Below are positions 24,800 to 30,925 of a DNA stretch of 32,104 nucleotides, one piece after another (position 1 is the first letter of the stretch; every line of letters begins with the position of its first letter). Location: the NCBI GenBank assembly GCA_903857255.1, contig CAIODY010000110.1, forward strand, positions 1-32,104. Reading direction: 5' to 3'. The notes beneath the pieces are model-generated. The model was not told the DNA's origin. It did not search any database and saw only the letters and a program-made list of their open reading frames with translations. Origin of the DNA: an uncultured bacterium (GTDB lineage: Bacteria; Bacteroidota; Bacteroidia; Chitinophagales; CAIODY01). The translations under genes and the position numbers were made by a program.

Positions 24800-24832
24800 G
24801 TTTTTAAACTTCTTCCTAAATACACTATCTAT

Positions 24833-25429
24833 GTGTTTGATAAAAAATTTTCATTGAACGAAATTGAATTCATACAAAACCTGCAACAGGGCAACCAGCA
24901 AGCATTTGCCGAGTTGGTAGAATTGTACAAGAATAAAATTTTCAACACAGCTATTGGCATTTTACAAAATGAACACGACGCCGAAGAAATTACGCAAGAA
25001 GTTTTTATCGAAGTTTTTCGTTCGATAAAAAACTTTAAAAATGAGGCTACTCTTTCCACTTGGATTTACAGAATTGCCGTCAACAAATCGTTAGATTTTA
25101 TTCGCAAAAGCAAACGCAACAAGCGATTTGGCATTGTTGTCAACTTATTTAAAGAAGAAACCAACGAGCCGATCGTGCATCCCAAAAACTTTTTTCATCC
25201 AGGAATTGCGTTGGAAAAAAAAGAAAAATCAACGATTTTATTTGCAGCGATTGAACAATTAAACGAGCGACAAAAAACTTGTTTTGTGTTAAAACATGTA
25301 GAAGGATTAAGCCAACGAGAAATTTCAGAAGTGATGCAATGTGCCGAAGGTGCAGTAGAATCAATGCTTTCAAGAGCAAAAGAAAATTTAAGAAAAATAT
25401 TGGGCGATTATTTTGATAAAAATTATTGA
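24833..25429 (+). CDS. ECF-type RNA polymerase sigma factor
   Basis: 198 residues. Region sigma-2 runs from AFAELVELYKNKIF through NEHDAEEITQEVFIEVFRSI to STWIYRIAVNKSLDFIRK. Region sigma-4 is LNERQKTCFVLKHVEGLSQ followed by REISEVMQCAEGAVESMLSR. There is no sigma-3, as in ECF factors. The start is GTG at 24833; the ATG two bases earlier is in another frame and ends after eight codons. Downstream, in order, are a small single-pass protein, a His-rich sensor-like protein, an MbnP and a di-heme peroxidase. This order suggests that the sigma factor is held by a membrane anti-sigma and released by a metal-sensing partner, as in CnrYXH. The proposed target promoter is at 25511 and 28417. Confidence 0.9.
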   Translation: MFDKKFSLNEIEFIQNLQQGNQQAFAELVELYKNKIFNTAIGILQNEHDAEEITQEVFIEVFRSIKNFKNEATLSTWIYRIAVNKSLDFIRKSKRNKRFGIVVNLFKEETNEPIVHPKNFFHPGIALEKKEKSTILFAAIEQLNERQKTCFVLKHVEGLSQREISEVMQCAEGAVESMLSRAKENLRKILGDYFDKNY

Positions 25430-25434
25430 ACCGA

Positions 25435-25513
25435 ATTGATTTTGCAAATTCAAAAATCCCTCTCCTTTTGGAGAGGTTAGGTGAGGTAAAAAAAGAAAAT
25501 TTGCAAAATCAAT
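25435..25513. repeat. 79-bp MITE-like element with 16-bp perfect inverted ends
   Basis: The left arm ATTGATTTTGCAAATT (25435-25450) is the exact reverse complement of the right arm AATTTGCAAAATCAAT (25498-25513). Inside is a second perfect stem, CCTCTCC-TTTT-GGAGAGG (25459-25476), followed by GGTGAGG. The core resembles the CCCTCTCC...GGAGAGG intergenic repeat that I recall from many Bacteroidota genomes; that recollection is unverified. It lies between the sigma factor stop and the next gene, and its right arm runs into the proposed -35 element. Confidence 0.65.
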
Positions 25514-25543
25514 CGAAGGATTTATTTTAAAACAACATCTAAA
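25511..25543 (+). promoter_or_regulatory. Candidate ECF-sigma promoter before the anti-sigma-like gene
   Basis: AATCGAAGGA, 12 nt, CAACATCTAAA. The same two blocks with the same 12-nt spacing occur at 28417-28449 before the YHYH gene. Read as an ECF promoter, the -35 is GAAGGA and the -10 is TCTAA, 17 nt apart, close to the sigma-E-type geometry. The -10 ends 6 nt before the ATG at 25549, so the transcript would be leaderless or nearly so. Confidence 0.55.
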
Positions 25544-25548
25544 AAAAT

Positions 25549-25836
25549 ATGCAAAAGGAAAAATGGATAGATGAAATATTGGAAAGCATTGACGGAATAA
25601 AAGCAACCGATACAAAAAATATTTCGTGGCAAACTATTCAGCAACGCATGAATGCACAACCACAAAATTATTTTTTTGAAACAAAAATAAAATGGGTGGC
25701 TGCGGCTGCAATGATAGTGTTCATCAATGTTTCGGTGTTGTGGTATATTAATCAACAACACACACAACCAACAAATAATTTGGCTGTTGAAAACATGGCA
25801 AAGGAAATGGGAATTGAAAATTCGTATAATTACTAA
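25549..25836 (+). CDS. Small single-pass membrane protein in anti-sigma position (CnrY-like)
   Basis: 95 residues with one transmembrane helix at about 48-66 (KWVAAAAMIVFINVSVLWYI). The N-terminal 47 residues are hydrophilic, with amphipathic helices (EKWIDEILESIDGIKA, SWQTIQQRMNAQ), and would be cytoplasmic. The last 29 residues would be periplasmic. I recognise no sequence family. The call rests on position directly after an ECF sigma gene, on topology, and on size equal to that I recall for CnrY, the anti-sigma of the nickel/cobalt system in Cupriavidus. Only 3 nt separate its stop from the next start, so the two are translated together. Confidence 0.65.
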   Translation: MQKEKWIDEILESIDGIKATDTKNISWQTIQQRMNAQPQNYFFETKIKWVAAAAMIVFINVSVLWYINQQHTQPTNNLAVENMAKEMGIENSYNY

Positions 25837-25839
25837 GCG

Positions 25840-26358
25840 ATGCAAAACGATAGCAATATCAAATTTTGGAAACTTTCAGTGGCTGGTTTAATTATTTTAA
25901 ACTTGCTTATTTTGACGTTCATATTTATTAGCCATCAACACCAAATTCGCCATCACGAAAGGTTTAAGCAAATGCCACCACCCATGCAAGGTGGTGAAAC
26001 ACCTGGCGAATTTTTGTGTCGTGAATTAAAATTTACCGAAAAACAAAAAGCTGATTTTGAAATTTTACGCAACCAACATCACGAAGCAATGGATTCGTTG
26101 GAAGAGCAAAGCAGAGATTTGCACCACGATTATTTTGATTTACTAAACAACGAAAACCCTGATGAACAAAAAGTTACAGCTTTGGCAAATGAAATTGGGC
26201 AAAATCAAAAAGCAAGAGATTTAATTACCTTTCATCATTTTGAAACAGTACGAAAATTGTGCAATGACGAACAGAAAAAGTATTTTGACGACATTATTCA
26301 CGAAGTGTTGCATCGCATTCATGGTGGGCAAAATCAGCCACCGCCGCCGCATCCATAA
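25840..26358 (+). CDS. His-rich membrane-anchored CpxP/Spy/CnrX-like periplasmic metal sensor
   Basis: 172 residues. An uncleaved N-terminal helix (about 12-30, SVAGLIILNLLILTFIFI) anchors a helical periplasmic domain of about 140 residues. It is of the CpxP/Spy type (LKFTEKQKADFEILRNQHHE, then LHHDYFDLLNNENPDEQKV, then FHHFETVRKLCNDEQKKYF). It is rich in His, with some Met: SHQHQIRHHE, HH80-81, HH95-96, HH132-133, IIHEVLHRIHGG and a final PPPPHP. Cys60 and Cys141 are also present. CnrX, the sensor of CnrYXH, has this fold and binds metal through His, Glu and Met. Here the protein would detect periplasmic metal and act on the anti-sigma encoded before it; that is inference from family and order. 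Confidence 0.75.
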   Translation: MQNDSNIKFWKLSVAGLIILNLLILTFIFISHQHQIRHHERFKQMPPPMQGGETPGEFLCRELKFTEKQKADFEILRNQHHEAMDSLEEQSRDLHHDYFDLLNNENPDEQKVTALANEIGQNQKARDLITFHHFETVRKLCNDEQKKYFDDIIHEVLHRIHGGQNQPPPPHP

Positions 26359-26376
26359 ATTTTAGTAGATAGTTTT

Positions 26377-27102
26377 TTGTTAAAAAATCAGCGTTTGAAA
26401 ATTTTTATTTTTTCTTGGTTTGCAATTTTGAATTGGTTTAGCAACAATTCAGCGCAGCATAATTTGCAAATAAATTTTCAGCCTGTTGTAAAAAATATTG
26501 TGCTACAACTCAATACCAAAGCGTATTTCATCCATTCGCAAGATTCTATTTTTATCACTACATTTAAAATGTACGTTGGAAAAATAATTTTGAATGATGA
26601 GGAATTGAAGGAACAATTTGTGGATGAAAATTATCATTTGCTGAATGTTGAAAATGTAGAATCATTCAAAATCGATTTAAAAAATTTGACGTTAAAGAAA
26701 ATTTCTTCGATAGATTTTTTTGTTGGTGTAGATAGTATCGAAAACATGAAAGGCGCATTGGATGGCGATTTGGATGTGAGCAATGCGATGTATTGGACAT
26801 GGAATTCGGGCTTTATTAATTTCAAATTAGAAGGTCATTCGCCCATTTGCAAAAGCATTCATCATGTATTTGAATTTCACATTGGCGGGTTTAAACATCC
26901 GAATAATTCGTTGCGAAAAGTCCATTTGCAATTAAAAACTCCGATGGATTTAATTTCAAAAAATAATCTCATCATAAAAATAGATTTGGCTGAAGCATTG
27001 AATAATATTGAGTTGGCGACCAACAACAGCATTGTTGAACCCAGCACCGAAGCGTTGAAAATGGCTGATAATTTTGCAAAAATGTTTTCCATTTCCGAAT
27101 GA
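26377..27102 (+). CDS. MbnP-family copper-binding protein
   Basis: Up to 241 residues. A hydrophobic signal (LKIFIFSWFAILNWFSNNSAQ) is followed by an MbnP-like beta domain with KMYVGKIIL, YHLLNVEN, IDFFVGVDS, GALDGDLDVSNAMYWTWNSG and FKLEGHSP. The mature part has only two Trp, W140 and W142, both in the YWTWNSGF signature, and many His (154, 162, 163, 168, 174, 183). In studied MbnP proteins a Trp is oxidised to kynurenine by the partner MbnH, which allows Cu(I) binding; here one of these two Trp is the only possible site. There is no ATG in frame: TTG at 26377 or TTG at 26395 must serve, and the latter gives a shorter signal peptide. It overlaps the next gene by 4 nt. Confidence 0.8.
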   Translation: MLKNQRLKIFIFSWFAILNWFSNNSAQHNLQINFQPVVKNIVLQLNTKAYFIHSQDSIFITTFKMYVGKIILNDEELKEQFVDENYHLLNVENVESFKIDLKNLTLKKISSIDFFVGVDSIENMKGALDGDLDVSNAMYWTWNSGFINFKLEGHSPICKSIHHVFEFHIGGFKHPNNSLRKVHLQLKTPMDLISKNNLIIKIDLAEALNNIELATNNSIVEPSTEALKMADNFAKMFSISE

Positions 27103-28127
27103 AAAAAAATCAAAAAATAGTTTTCGTTTTTTTTGTATCGACAATTTTTTCTGTTGTTTTTTTTTCGTTTAAAAAAGATAAAATTGAGTTTATTCAGCCC
27201 AAAGGTTTTCCAAAACCGTTGTATGATTTTTCTAAAAATCCTTTAACTGATGCAGGTTTCAAGTTGGGCAGAAAATTATTTTACGACCCAATTTTATCAA
27301 AAGACAGTTCCACTTCTTGCAATAGTTGTCATTTACAATTTTCAGGTTTTACGCATGTTGACCATGCGCTAAGCCATGGTATTCATGGCTTGAAGGGCAA
27401 TCGCAATTCGCCAGTGTTGGTGAATTTGGCTTGGCAGAAATTTTTTATGCTGGATGGTGGTGTTACAAATTTAGAATTGCAACCACTTGCGCCGCTCACC
27501 AATCCTGTGGAAATGGATGAGAATATGGCGCATGTGGTGATGAAATTAAATCGGTCGCATTATTACAGAAGCCATTTCCAGCAAGCATTTGGCGATAGTT
27601 TGATAACTGGGCAACATGTGTTGAAAGCGTTGACACAGTTTTTGGTAATGTTGGAATCGTACCATTCAAAATTTGACAAAGTGATGAATGGCGAAGAAAA
27701 ATTTTCGGTTGAAGAAGAAAATGGTTTTCGATTTTTTAAAAAGAATTGCGCCGCTTGTCATATCAATCAAACCTTTACGGATGGCGCATTTCACAACATC
27801 GGTTTGCCTTATGATGCGGAATTAAAAGATGTGGGTAGAATGAAAATCACGAAAGACAAACGTGATTCGTTGAAATTTAAAACGCCTACACTCCGCAATG
27901 TGGCTGCATCTTATCCTTACATGCACGATGGTAGATTTAAAAATTTGGATGAAGTAATTGATTTTTATGCAACGGATAAAAGCAATAATTTAGCAGTTGA
28001 TAAATTGCTTCGGCGAAAAATTATTTTTAAAAACAACGATAAAAAAGATTTGCTAGCATTCCTCAAAACGTTGACTGATAAAGAGTTTCTGAATGATTTA
28101 AAATTTAGAGATTGGGTGAATGAATGA
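27099..28127 (+). CDS. Di-heme cytochrome c peroxidase, MauG/MbnH-like
   Basis: 342 residues. An N-terminal hydrophobic segment (6-23) is a signal or anchor. Two c-type heme sites are present: CNSCH (74-78) and CAACH (217-221). Family segments include GNRNSPVLVNLAW (W112 between the hemes), LAPLTNPVEMDENM and TLRNVAASYPYMHDGRF, with Met275 where classical peroxidases have an axial Met. Its ATG overlaps the MbnP stop (ATGA), the usual arrangement of MbnP-MbnH pairs. I infer that it is the MbnH partner that oxidises the MbnP Trp, rather than a detoxifying peroxidase. It requires the cytochrome c maturation system, which is not in this window. Confidence 0.88.
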   Translation: MKKNQKIVFVFFVSTIFSVVFFSFKKDKIEFIQPKGFPKPLYDFSKNPLTDAGFKLGRKLFYDPILSKDSSTSCNSCHLQFSGFTHVDHALSHGIHGLKGNRNSPVLVNLAWQKFFMLDGGVTNLELQPLAPLTNPVEMDENMAHVVMKLNRSHYYRSHFQQAFGDSLITGQHVLKALTQFLVMLESYHSKFDKVMNGEEKFSVEEENGFRFFKKNCAACHINQTFTDGAFHNIGLPYDAELKDVGRMKITKDKRDSLKFKTPTLRNVAASYPYMHDGRFKNLDEVIDFYATDKSNNLAVDKLLRRKIIFKNNDKKDLLAFLKTLTDKEFLNDLKFRDWVNE

Positions 28128-28132
28128 AAACC

Positions 28133-28170
28133 AATTTGAAAATTTGAAGATGAGAAAATTTGAAAATTGA
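28133..28170. repeat. AT-rich dispersed repeat, copy 1
   Basis: Repeated AATTTGAAAA units just after the peroxidase stop. The 18-mer TGAGAAAATTTGAAAATT at 28151-28168 recurs exactly at 30938-30955. It belongs to the 345-nt gene-free stretch 28128-28472. Confidence 0.6.
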
Positions 28171-28180
28171 AATGCAATAG

Positions 28181-28220
28181 CACACGGATTGAACGGATGA
28201 GAAGGATTTTGACAGATTTT
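28181..28220. repeat. ACGGATTGAACGGAT-type intergenic repeat
   Basis: The sequence CACACGGATTGAACGGATGA followed by GAAGGATTTTGACAGATTTT has three imperfect GGAT(T) units. I recall this kind of short repeat from intergenic regions of many bacteria; this is not verified here. Confidence 0.45.
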
Positions 28221-28275
28221 AAAAAAGGCTTAACGCAAAATTCGCAAAGAGAATACAGCGCAAAGAACGCAGCGT
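28221..28275. repeat. ACGCAAAG-type intergenic repeat
   Basis: Imperfect repeats of CGCAAAG: AACGCAAAATTCGCAAAGAG, then GCGCAAAGAACGCAGCG. It directly follows the GGATT repeat. It resembles a widely dispersed bacterial intergenic repeat, from memory only. A 78-codon open frame on the minus strand crosses it and is not a gene. Confidence 0.5.
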
Positions 28276-28311
28276 AAAATAGATAACGAGAAGGTCGAAA
28301 TAAAAAATGAA

Positions 28312-28396
28312 GCGGCAGGGATAGTAGCGGAAATCCTTTTGCAGCATAGGTTTTGAGCGTTGAGCAAAAGATTGTAGCGAATAGCCCGTGTGCCGC
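28312..28396. repeat. 85-nt structured repeat or possible small RNA element
   Basis: Nested pairing: GCGGCA (28312-28317) with TGCCGC (28391-28396), GGG (28318-28320) with CCC (28385-28387), and AATCCTTTTGC (28332-28342) with GCAAAAGATT (28364-28373, one bulge). The two flanks of the internal loop are themselves a direct repeat (ATAGTAGCGGA and TTGTAGCGAAT). It ends about 20 nt before the proposed ECF promoter of the YHYH gene. Confidence 0.5.
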
Positions 28397-28416
28397 ACGA
28401 AAATATTTTCAGAAAA

Positions 28417-28449
28417 AATCGAAGGAAAAAAATTGAAACAACATCTAAA
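28417..28449 (+). promoter_or_regulatory. Candidate ECF-sigma promoter of the YHYH gene
   Basis: AATCGAAGGA, 12 nt, CAACATCTAAA, identical in both blocks and spacing to 25511-25543, while the 12-nt spacer differs (TTTATTTTAAAA versus AAAAAATTGAAA). With GAAGGA as -35 and TCTAA as -10, transcription would start about 18 nt before the ATG at 28473. Confidence 0.55.
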
Positions 28450-28472
28450 CTAAATAACAAACACAATTAATC

Positions 28473-29729
28473 ATGAGAAAATTATTTTTACCACTACTTT
28501 TTATTGCCATGAGCTACAACGCTTTATTGGCGCAGGTTACAGACCCTACAATTACTTCATGGATTCAAAACACAACGGCAACGGGCTATGCTGGCATTGT
28601 TTCTAATTGTCAATTGGTGCAATATGCCACCAACAATGTGTATGTAAGTTGCACTTGCATTCCGGGTTATTCGATTGGTCCTTGGAATAATCCGAATGTT
28701 GCCAGTAATCAAAATTTTGTTTACAAAATTACTCGTCATCCGCAACCAGAAACAGGTACGCAAACGGCTGTGGGCATGGGACACATCGGAGTTTTAATCA
28801 ACGGTGTTTCGTTGTTTAATGTGTATGATGGTTATTGGTGGGATACAACAACGAATAATTGGAATAGCACACCAAGCATGACCACACACCTTTGGAACAG
28901 AAATGCGTTGAAATATGAATACCCAAGTTTTGATAATTGCATTGGGCATCCGCAGCAACAAGGCGAATATCATCATCATGTGAGCCCAAAATGTTTGTAT
29001 GACCAAACGGATAGCACACATCACTCACCATTGATTGGATATGCGTTTGACGGTTATCCAATTTATGGTGCCTACGGCTATGCCACTGCCAACAACGCTT
29101 CCAGCGGAATTAAAAGAATGAAAAGCAGTTATGTATTGCAATCAGCATCAACTCGATATCTTGGACCGCCAGTAAATTCAACTTATCCTTTGGGTAATTT
29201 GTGTGAAGATTATGTGTACACACAAGGCGCTGGAGATTTAGATGCCAGCAATGGTAGATTGTGCGTTACGCCTGAATATCCGAATGGTACTTATGCCTAT
29301 TTTATGACGCTGGATGCTTCGTTGAATCCAACATTTCCTTACACTTTTTATGGGAATTATTATGGCGTAGTGCCAACAGGAAATATCGGACCTAACTCGG
29401 GTCATCAAACTGTTGCCAGCACTGATACGGTGCAAACCTATACGCCATCAACAACTGGCGTTGAAGAATTGAAAAATCAAACATTGGATTTTTTGGTTTT
29501 TCCAAATCCAACCAACACGATGTTGCACATTTTTATTCAACCAATTTATTCAAATGATTTCACCGTTGAATTGTATGACATGATGGGAAGAAAAATTATT
29601 TCAAAAAATAATGTGCACCCAACTATTACCGAAAGCCTTGATGTAAGCCAAGTTGCGGCAGGTAATTATGTTTTGAAAATTTTCAATAGTCAATTTAGCA
29701 GCACCAAAAAAATTACAATAGGCGAATAA
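28473..29729 (+). CDS. YHYH-domain protein exported by the type IX secretion system
   Basis: 418 residues with signal peptide MRKLFLPLLFIAMSYNALLAQ. The YHYH domain spans about 22-310: GMGHIGVLINGVSLFNVYDG, then the signature region GEYHHHVSPKCLYD (166-169 is YHHH instead of YHYH), then PLIGYAFDGYPIYGAYGYA and YVYTQGAGDLDASNGR. Cys46, Cys60, Cys62, Cys156 and Cys174 could form disulfides. The C-terminal 80 residues are a T9SS type A sorting domain (FLVFPNPTNTMLHIFI, ELYDMMGRKIISK, VAAGNYVLKIFNSQ). The protein is thus probably cell-surface bound or secreted, processed by PorU. YHYH function is not known. A shared promoter motif links it to the MbnP/MbnH operon. Confidence 0.88.
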   Translation: MRKLFLPLLFIAMSYNALLAQVTDPTITSWIQNTTATGYAGIVSNCQLVQYATNNVYVSCTCIPGYSIGPWNNPNVASNQNFVYKITRHPQPETGTQTAVGMGHIGVLINGVSLFNVYDGYWWDTTTNNWNSTPSMTTHLWNRNALKYEYPSFDNCIGHPQQQGEYHHHVSPKCLYDQTDSTHHSPLIGYAFDGYPIYGAYGYATANNASSGIKRMKSSYVLQSASTRYLGPPVNSTYPLGNLCEDYVYTQGAGDLDASNGRLCVTPEYPNGTYAYFMTLDASLNPTFPYTFYGNYYGVVPTGNIGPNSGHQTVASTDTVQTYTPSTTGVEELKNQTLDFLVFPNPTNTMLHIFIQPIYSNDFTVELYDMMGRKIISKNNVHPTITESLDVSQVAAGNYVLKIFNSQFSSTKKITIGE

Positions 29730-29835: not shown

Positions 29836-30925
29836 ATGACAACAGATAATTTGAAAGCCCTCCGGGAGCGTTCCGCTGCTTTAAAGCGGTTTCTTTGACG
29901 TAGATACCCGAATTGAAAAACACAGACAGGAAGAGGCTTTAACGCTTGCACCCAATTTTTGGGACGACCCCAAACGGGCTGAAACCGTGATGAAATCTAT
30001 CAAAACGGAATTGTTTTGGATAAATGCATTCAAGCAAACAAATGATGCGGTGGAAGATTGTGGTGTGTTGCAAGAGTTTTTAGAAGTTGGCGAATCTACC
30101 GAAAATGATGTAGAAGCCGCTTACCAAAAGGCTTTGCAGGAAGTGGAAGATTTAGAATTTAAAGCCACCCTCAACAAACCCGAAGATAGTTTTGGTGCGG
30201 TGCTTACCATCAACGCAGGTGCAGGTGGTACTGAAAGCTGCGACTGGGCTGGCATGCTGGTACGTATGTATTTGCGTTATGCCGAAAAACAAGGTTATAA
30301 AATTACTGAAATGGATTTGCAACAAGGCGATGTAGCAGGTATAAAATCGGCTACCTATGAATTTGAAGGCGAATTTGCTTATGGTTTTTTAAAGGCTGAA
30401 ACTGGCGTCCATCGCTTGGTTCGCATTTCGCCGTTTGATAGCAATGCACGAAGACATACTTCTTTTGCCAGCGTTTCGGTTTACCCGATGGTGGACGATA
30501 CGATTGAAATTGAAATAAAACCGGCTGACATTGAAATGCAAACATCACGAAGTGGTGGTGCTGGTGGACAGAATGTAAATAAAGTGGAAACAAAAGTTCA
30601 ACTCACTCACATTCCAACAGGCATCGTGGTGGTGTGTCAGGCTGACCGTTCGCAATTGGGCAACAAAGAGTTAGCAATGAAAATGTTGAAGAGCAAATTG
30701 TATGAATTGGAATTGCAAAAGCGCAATGAAGAACGCGATAAACTGAACGCCACAAAAAAGAAAATTGAATGGGGTAGCCAGATTCGCAGTTATGTTTTGC
30801 ATCCTTATAAATTGATTAAAGACCACAGAACTGATTATGAAGTAGGCAACGTACAACCTGTGTTGGATGGGGAATTAGACGGATTCATCAAAGCATTTTT
30901 GATGTTGGAAGCAGAGAATAATTAG
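29836..30925 (+). CDS. prfB: Peptide chain release factor 2, with programmed +1 frameshift
   Basis: Read as join(29836..29895, 29897..30925), 362 residues. The short first frame (20 codons, [20 protein letters not shown]) ends in CTT TGA C. Skipping one base there gives [19 protein letters not shown] and continues to the stop at 30925. RF2 reads UGA and UAA stop codons. The recognition tripeptide SPF is in [16 protein letters not shown] and the catalytic GGQ in [17 protein letters not shown], both specific for RF2. Because the frameshift competes with termination at UGA, the factor limits its own synthesis. An ATG at 29987 is internal and not the true start. A promoter candidate lies at 29788. 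Confidence 0.95.
29873..29899 (+). promoter_or_regulatory. prfB: prfB programmed frameshift site
   Basis: The slippery CTT with the in-frame TGA followed by C (29893-29899) is the classical RF2 signal. The AGGGGG-type Shine-Dalgarno normally found just upstream is reduced to AAGCGG. These bases form the 3' arm of a 5-bp stem (CCGCT 29873-29877 with AGCGG 29885-29889) that ends 3 nt before the CTT. Confidence 0.85.

Follow-up and report, generated by a model that had tools for sequence, protein, structure and literature searches.

Which circuit controls MbnP and its partner MbnH outside the methanobactin producers, and what do the two proteins do there? A 2013 survey called them "mysterious partners", conserved far beyond the methanobactin producers, and their role and control in those other bacteria were unknown at that time (PMC3621798). 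The question is raised by a stretch of 32,104 nucleotides from an uncultured member of the Bacteroidota (contig CAIODY010000110.1 of assembly GCA_903857255.1; the whole stretch is called the window hereafter), in which the genes for an extracytoplasmic function (ECF) sigma factor and two membrane proteins are followed by genes for MbnP, an MbnH-type di-heme enzyme and a YHYH-domain protein (24833-29729; hereafter the cassette). We found the same gene order in dozens of Bacteroidota families, together with a promoter signature that is shared within the cassette. We consider it rather likely that the cassette is a dedicated metal-response regulon of the cell envelope, in which the metal is probably copper and the output is its capture or handling.

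Gene content and layout of the cassette

A preliminary description of the locus had listed six genes in a fixed order. Family searches and the open reading frames confirmed that all six are present on the + strand in that order, with the following features.

24805..24831, + strand: predicted promoter of the sigma gene, TAAACT-N16-TATCTA (AAACY-N16-RTCT); position kept in two congeners
24854..25429, + strand: ECF sigma factor gene (Sigma70_r2/r4_2; alignment with six orthologues; tree)
25514..25542, + strand: predicted sigma-dependent promoter P1, CGAAGG-N16-CATCTAA, for the anti-sigma, sensor, MbnP and MbnH genes (motif)
25549..25836, + strand: putative anti-sigma factor of 95 residues (conserved position, one transmembrane helix)
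25840..26358, + strand: membrane-anchored sensor of the CpxP/Spy/CnrX fold, 172 residues (LTXXQ/Metal_resist, profile, model)
26377..27102, + strand: MbnP-family protein (PF20243; AlphaFold2 model against 7l6g)
27099..28127, + strand: MbnH/MauG-type di-heme enzyme (CCP_MauG, TIGR04039)
28420..28448, + strand: predicted sigma-dependent promoter P2, CGAAGG-N16-CATCTAA, for YHYH (motif)
28473..29729, + strand: secreted YHYH-domain protein with a type A sorting tail of the type IX secretion system (T9SS) (PF14240, Por_Secre_tail)

The MbnP and MbnH genes overlap by 4 bases, gaps of 3 and 18 bases separate the sensor gene from the small-protein gene and from the MbnP gene, respectively, and the YHYH gene starts 345 bases past the MbnH gene. 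The sigma factor matched Sigma70_r2 (1.7e-16) and Sigma70_r4_2 (1.6e-16). Its start had been placed at GTG 24833, a codon directly after the predicted promoter at 24805-24831 and ahead of any expected transcription start. Because the conserved TAAACT-N16-TATCTA ends just ahead of this GTG, TTG 24854 is the likelier start; the orthologues of the sigma factor begin at or near it.

The gene order recurs across the Bacteroidota

MbnP (PF20243) was found in 53 of 61 relatives. Among the loci that were read, seven, including the window, had the full order of sigma, small-protein, sensor, MbnP, MbnH and YHYH genes (families f1, f9, f13 and f20), and a few more had MbnP-MbnH-YHYH without the sigma part. 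A class-wide search (295 genomes) was performed with an alignment of the sensor, and the neighbourhoods were then read. Counted once per sigma gene and with the relatives included, this gave 63 cassettes of sigma, small-protein and sensor genes, 36 of which continue into MbnP-MbnH. When the cassette MbnPs were compared with named genomes, at least 569 relatives were detected, and sigma and sensor genes were present at more than 40 of the best 80 of these, in a scan seeded mostly with cassette MbnPs. The carriers in named genomes include Flavobacterium paronense, F. sedimenticola, F. amnicola, F. tegetincola DSM 22377, F. lotistagni and F. psychrotolerans.

Across all loci, 107 cassettes were counted. 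MbnP is encoded in 79 of them, accompanied by an MbnH-type gene in every case (79/79), by YHYH in 58 and by a multicopper oxidase in 12; an AhpC/TSA-type thioredoxin gene was found in 10 cassettes. Further, in an independent sample centred on YHYH, about two-fifths of the full-length YHYH genes had MbnP or MbnH no more than 1.5 kb away. When the sigma factors were labelled by the presence of MbnP-MbnH (MbnPH), the label clustered on the sigma tree, and none of 500 shuffles gave a value as low. The gene order is far beyond chance, because it recurs in dozens of Bacteroidota families, and the linkage of the sigma and MbnPH genes is retained in relatives of the window genome, whereas its absence there would have refuted the preliminary description.

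That description also knew of no system with this composition. We likewise found no Bacteroidota cassette of sigma, CnrX-like and MbnPH genes in the open-access literature, subscription papers lying outside that search. The cassette is a widespread but apparently undescribed Bacteroidota gene set: its parts are known, and the combination, the ligand set of the sensor, the family of the candidate anti-sigma factor and the promoter signature appear to be new. A search of viral contigs gave no relative. Models of anti-phage defence gave only one match, which was marginal and without meaning.

One promoter signature precedes the small-protein and YHYH genes

Comparison of the gaps within the cassettes revealed one common bipartite motif, CG[CA]A[AG]G-N16-C[GA]TC[TA](AA), which is located just ahead of the small-protein gene and again ahead of the gene after MbnH (YHYH or multicopper oxidase). 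With 16 bases between its halves, the motif precedes the small-protein gene in 61 cassettes out of 108 and is present in half of the regions after MbnH (32/64); the other spacings in the range 8-24 each gave at most one or two occurrences. Of 550 upstream regions in a comparison set to which the YHYH and oxidase genes also belong, 34 had the motif at spacing 16.

Two of the three matches to the stricter pattern CGMARG-N15-17-CRTCTAA in the window genome are in the cassette (25514-25542 and 28420-28448). A narrower form of the window's own motif occurs twice in 2.97 Mb, both times at these sites, and its backwards control gave 0 matches. The genome G004 has four matches to CGMARG-N15-17-CRTCTAA, all on the cassette contig and three of them in the cassette (upstream of the sigma, small-protein and YHYH genes); the fourth (G004:C3:4278) has no clear gene close downstream and was not counted in the regulon. 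Further, the P2 motif ahead of YHYH is kept in both congeners. We read the CGAAGG-N16-CATCTAA boxes as the predicted target promoters of the sigma factor. A CGT-type -10 box marks an ECF promoter in F. psychrophilum too (PMC9723704). Since the signature is common to both, YHYH and MbnPH would belong to one regulon; cross-family synteny and the motif shared by the small-protein and YHYH genes support the earlier proposal that the sigma module is joined to them.

The sigma gene is preceded by a different sequence, TAAACT-N16-TATCTA, which stands at the same place in two congeners while the surrounding DNA has diverged. At positions -75 to -15 of the sigma genes of 111 cassettes, AAAC[CT]-N16-[AG]TCT was found 8 times at spacing 16 and 0-1 times at others. 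The genome-wide pattern TAAACY-N15-17-RTCTW is not specific (50 matches, fewer than the 99 of its backwards control), so that position and spacing are what support this promoter. An initial candidate upstream of the sigma genes, AAAC[CT]-N15..17-[AG]TC, occurred in 16 of 111 (mean after shuffling, 3.4); it is distinct from the motif that recurs inside the cassettes.

The gap between the sigma and small-protein genes (25430-25513) contains a nested inverted repeat (TTGATTTTGCAAATT...AATTTGCAAAATCAA around CCCTCTCCTTTTGGAGAGG), which is missing in both congeners and looks like a small inserted repeat. In the MbnH-YHYH gap, an Rfam Flavo-1 RNA (RF01705) was detected at 28310-28395 (52.5 bits; cut-off 42), and the stretch that holds it is longer in the window than in the congeners.

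MbnP, the MbnH-type enzyme and YHYH

The MbnP of the window matched PF20243 at 5.2e-39 (134.6 bits; gathering score 27). Its AlphaFold2 model (predicted local distance difference test score, pLDDT, 91.6) had one strong structural match, the Methylosinus MbnP 7l6g (Z 17.5 over 205 residues), the next match having a Z of 5.2. W140 and W142, which form the motif W140-T-W142, are invariant in 36 of 36 cassette MbnPs; H168 is also invariant, and the WxW of an MbnP relative aligned with that of 7l6g. A direct profile search of the PDB with the cassette MbnPs gave no match, whereas a relative nearer the family consensus did match.

The MbnH-type enzyme matched CCP_MauG (5.3e-52) and, as its best model, TIGR04039 (3.6e-59); its closest solved structure is 6e1c (1.4e-37). 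It has two CXXCH motifs, CNSCH and CAACH, at 74-78 and 217-221, and Tyr290, which aligns with the axial Met of the di-heme peroxidase 1iqc, is invariant in 75 of 75 MbnH-type enzymes, a pattern that would be expected of MauG/MbnH chemistry. YHYH matched PF14240 (7.6e-55, 186 bits) and Por_Secre_tail (2.2e-13, 50.7 bits), both over the cut-off, and was aligned with 24 relatives. The window genome, which is 97% complete, gave no match to the MbnB family (PF05114), in agreement with the earlier remark that no methanobactin genes were in view.

Related cassettes and the probable metal

In four sister cassettes, genes for a lipoprotein YHYH, a MORN-repeat protein and SCO1/SenC stand in place of MbnPH, with a TonB-dependent receptor in one. 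The cassette of F. tegetincola runs from sigma, anti-sigma and sensor genes through MbnP and MbnH to a YHYH lipoprotein, SCO1 and CotH; in other flavobacteria, a T9SS multicopper oxidase and a thioredoxin-like protein are inserted. On the sigma tree, the sigma factors with SCO1-type outputs nest among those with MbnPH-type outputs. The window genome has a second sigma/small-protein/sensor cassette on contig C21 (L165:604-13063). Genes of the T9SS multicopper oxidase and thioredoxin-like types precede it, and it is followed by those for metallophosphatases, a T9SS protein with a YHYH domain, and HupE/UreJ. The only two YHYH genes of the genome each adjoin one of its two cassettes, and the C21 sigma factor groups with a sigma factor ahead of MbnPH and YHYH in another genome (L163).

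These related operons bear on the identity of the metal, for which copper had been suggested: SCO1/SenC or multicopper oxidase genes join them, and none of the 107 downstream gene runs contained a P-type ATPase motif or a protein of 950-1150 residues, the size of a resistance-nodulation-division (RND) pump. Because SCO1 or multicopper oxidase, and never an efflux pump, is found in the related cassettes, the metal is probably copper, and because no efflux pump is present, the role is probably acquisition or handling rather than resistance of the CnrYXH type.

Other arrangements were observed around the same families. Flavobacterium operons (L183, L191, L199, L209, L213) have in addition a T9SS multicopper oxidase with a thioredoxin-like protein or, past YHYH, a second MauG-like enzyme (~394 residues). 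A recurrent Bacteroidota operon (L123, L131, L135, L136, L327-L333) encodes a lipoprotein YHYH of ~260 residues, a MORN-repeat protein of ~190-200 residues and a protein of ~215-225 residues, which is SCO1/SenC where tested; this operon sometimes adjoins the same sigma module. In one branch of the sigma/sensor module (L155, L160, L161, L164), a TonB-dependent receptor of the outer membrane (annotated as OMP_b-brl_3 in L155) follows in place of MbnPH.

The small protein and the sensor

The 95-residue protein has a predicted topology of ~46 cytoplasmic residues, one transmembrane helix and a short periplasmic tail. One transmembrane-like stretch was found in 105 of 106 members of its family, with a median of 46 residues before it. 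Most members end in a periplasmic tail motif like NxLY or NxLYxE, in otherwise fast-evolving sequences, and this tail may be a contact with the sensor. The protein had no match in Pfam, NCBIfam or the PDB. Its size and topology are compatible with a CnrY-like class II anti-sigma factor, and class II domains share only a few percent identity among themselves (PMC7406223). Further, ECF sigma genes of the Bacteroidota seldom adjoin class I anti-sigma genes (PMC7406223), which leaves room for another class of anti-sigma factor. From its position, topology and size, we infer that the small protein is the anti-sigma factor.

The protein encoded next matched LTXXQ (9.9e-9) and Metal_resist (4.6e-7). 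Its AlphaFold2 model, built on a 42-member alignment, has a mean pLDDT of 85 and shows an anchor helix (3-35) and a hairpin domain of four helices. In profile searches, Spy was the best solved structure (9e-5), followed by NccX (0.006) and CnrX (0.05), and the match to NccX is full length, membrane anchor included. In the 42-member alignment, H80, H133 and C141 are nearly invariant.

A proposed circuit and its alternatives

Taken together, these features suggest the following circuit. The 95-residue protein would retain the sigma factor at the inner membrane; the sensor of the CpxP/CnrX fold would read the periplasmic metal state through its conserved His and Cys residues. A change of state of the sensor would free the sigma factor, which would then fire the two matching promoters, one for the anti-sigma, sensor, MbnP and MbnH genes and one for YHYH. 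The MauG-type MbnH may oxidise a Trp of MbnP to kynurenine and thereby create a copper site, and YHYH would be exported to the cell surface by the T9SS. The output would be copper capture or handling, by MbnPH here and by SCO1 and multicopper oxidase in relatives, and not efflux.

Several observations weigh against this proposal. Most MbnP genes of the order are outside this cassette type, and the seeding of the named-genome scan biases its proportions towards it. The -10 box of predicted P1 lies ~7 bases from the ATG of the small-protein gene, a weak point that would require a leaderless or nearly leaderless transcript; leaderless mRNAs make up ~5.5% in F. psychrophilum (PMC9723704). The small protein had no similarity to CnrY or another anti-sigma factor in the profile, PDB and Pfam searches. 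MbnP scored 27.1 bits against the copper-binding equivalog TIGR04052 (cut-off 140) and the MbnH-type enzyme 200.5 bits against the equivalog TIGR04039 (cut-off 362.85); because both are below the NCBIfam equivalog cut-offs, the proteins are filed as MbnP-superfamily and MauG/MbnH-type, not as strict equivalogs. The sensor model aligns to CnrX 40-148, as the earlier description would predict (106-109 residues, root mean square deviation 3.2-3.8, no large gaps), with a Z of 11.4, a value that common helical hairpins also reach and that is therefore not decisive. The metal ligands of CnrX, which we take to be H42, H46, E63, H119 and M123, fall at a constant offset of 14 on G56, C60, R77, H133 and V137 of the sensor. 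Four of the five are not conserved: H42, E63 and M123 have no counterpart, H46 is aligned to C60, and H133 (CnrX H119) alone is conserved in the 42-member family. Metal binding by the sensor is therefore only putative, and C141 could equally sense redox state. By this comparison the sensor is not of the CnrX metal-site type and could still work like CnrX.

Among the alternatives, the most probable keeps the circuit and reverses the polarity of the preliminary description, in which release of the sigma factor by metal was assumed: copper scarcity would free the sigma factor, and the outputs would scavenge copper, like CorA, MopE and the methanobactin genes of methanotrophs. We regard it as a serious possibility, at somewhat short of even chances. 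The outputs (MbnPH, SCO1, multicopper oxidase and, in some sister cassettes, TonB-dependent receptors) resemble acquisition or maturation functions, and the consistent lack of a P-type ATPase motif or RND-size pump downstream fits scavenging or maturation. Further, copper represses CorA and the MauG-like CorB (PMC3912023), the best-studied kynurenine/MauG-like pair in the literature consulted. Against scarcity, bound metal activates CnrX, the nearest characterised sensor, and multicopper oxidases serve copper tolerance too.

The main rival for the input step is that the sensor is a Spy/CpxP-like sensor of envelope or redox stress acting through Cys141, the copper proteins being induced since copper or peroxide damages the envelope. 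Spy is the best match to a solved structure, CnrX H42, E63 and M123 are absent, and MauG-type enzymes use peroxide. However, His80, His133 and Cys141 are nearly invariant, the full-length match with the anchor is to NccX/CnrX and not to the soluble Spy, and the outputs are copper-related. We judge such a stress sensor unlikely.

Somewhat less likely still is a metal other than copper (e.g. Zn, Ni, Co or Fe), with MbnP-family proteins that bind this metal or only transfer electrons. The MbnP score far under the copper-binding cut-off and HupE/UreJ in the paralogous cassette would fit, whereas the fold and WxW held in common with MbnP 7l6g and the recurrence of SCO1/SenC and multicopper oxidase in sister operons argue for copper. 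That the sigma module came to lie next to MbnPH-YHYH by chance or through selfish clustering, without a regulatory connection, is very improbable: MbnP-MbnH-YHYH did occur without a detected sigma gene at 18 of 80 named loci and the sigma module adjoins other genes too, but the same motif at one fixed spacing precedes the anti-sigma gene and YHYH or oxidase genes across families and is nearly confined to the cassette in the window genome, and the MbnPH label is clustered on the sigma tree.

The envelope metal-response regulon remains our preferred reading. A bolder version, which we advance tentatively and think more doubtful than true, is that the cassette represents a metal-sensing sigma circuit of a new class, which has its own ligand set (His80/His133/Cys141) and its own NxLY-tailed anti-sigma family and across the Bacteroidota commands kynurenine-based copper acquisition at the surface without methanobactin. 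If this were true, MbnP, MbnH and YHYH would be a general copper-uptake system.

Past the cassette, the release factor 2 gene (29838-30925) apparently requires a +1 frameshift close to 29892 (tctttgac, past a short initial frame), which resembles the usual programmed frameshift of prfB.

Implications and comparison with known systems

The kynurenine chemistry of MbnP has been established since the 2013 survey. For the MbnP and MbnH proteins beyond the methanobactin producers, the cassette supplies a candidate regulator, a promoter sequence and a co-regulated gene set (YHYH, SCO1, multicopper oxidase), and its presence in cultured Flavobacterium species makes the proposal testable. The gene set suggests dedicated copper handling at the cell envelope. 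Further, it suggests a function for YHYH proteins, for which the open literature searched gave none, and provides an anti-sigma candidate in a phylum where most ECF sigma factors have no class I anti-sigma neighbour (PMC7406223).

The resemblance to CnrYXH and NccYXH of Cupriavidus metallidurans, on which the preliminary description had drawn, stands in part. In both, an ECF sigma factor is co-encoded with a small partner that spans the membrane once and with a four-helix sensor anchored in the membrane, and the fold and logic agree. The ligands (one of five), sequence similarity to CnrY and downstream efflux genes do not carry over. The gene order is H-Y-X here and Y-X-H there, H80 and C141 are conserved here in place of CnrX H42, E63 and M123, and copper-protein and surface genes stand downstream here in place of an efflux pump. 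In the PorXY-SigP system, the ECF sigma factor is likewise from the Bacteroidota and its -10 box is of the CGT type (PMC9723704). SigP is linked to a two-component system and the T9SS machinery, whereas the sigma factor described here comes with a membrane partner and a sensor of its own, and its regulon is local.

The CorA/CorB and MopE/SACCP systems of methanotrophs also pair a copper protein that contains kynurenine with a di-heme partner resembling MauG, and surface exposure is again involved (PMC3912023). They are of a different family with no marked similarity to MbnP (PMC3621798), no sigma module is reported for either in the literature consulted, and CorA/CorB are repressed by copper. 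In comparison with MbnP/MbnH of Methylosinus trichosporium, the genome studied here has no MbnB-family gene and scores below the NCBIfam equivalog cut-offs, and it has a CnrX-like module where Methylosinus has the FecIR-like MbnIR, a type of sigma pair that the 2013 survey described in Methylosinus only (PMC3621798). The two systems share the adjacent gene pair, the same folds (7l6g, 6e1c), the WxW motif, the two CXXCH motifs and Tyr at the axial position.

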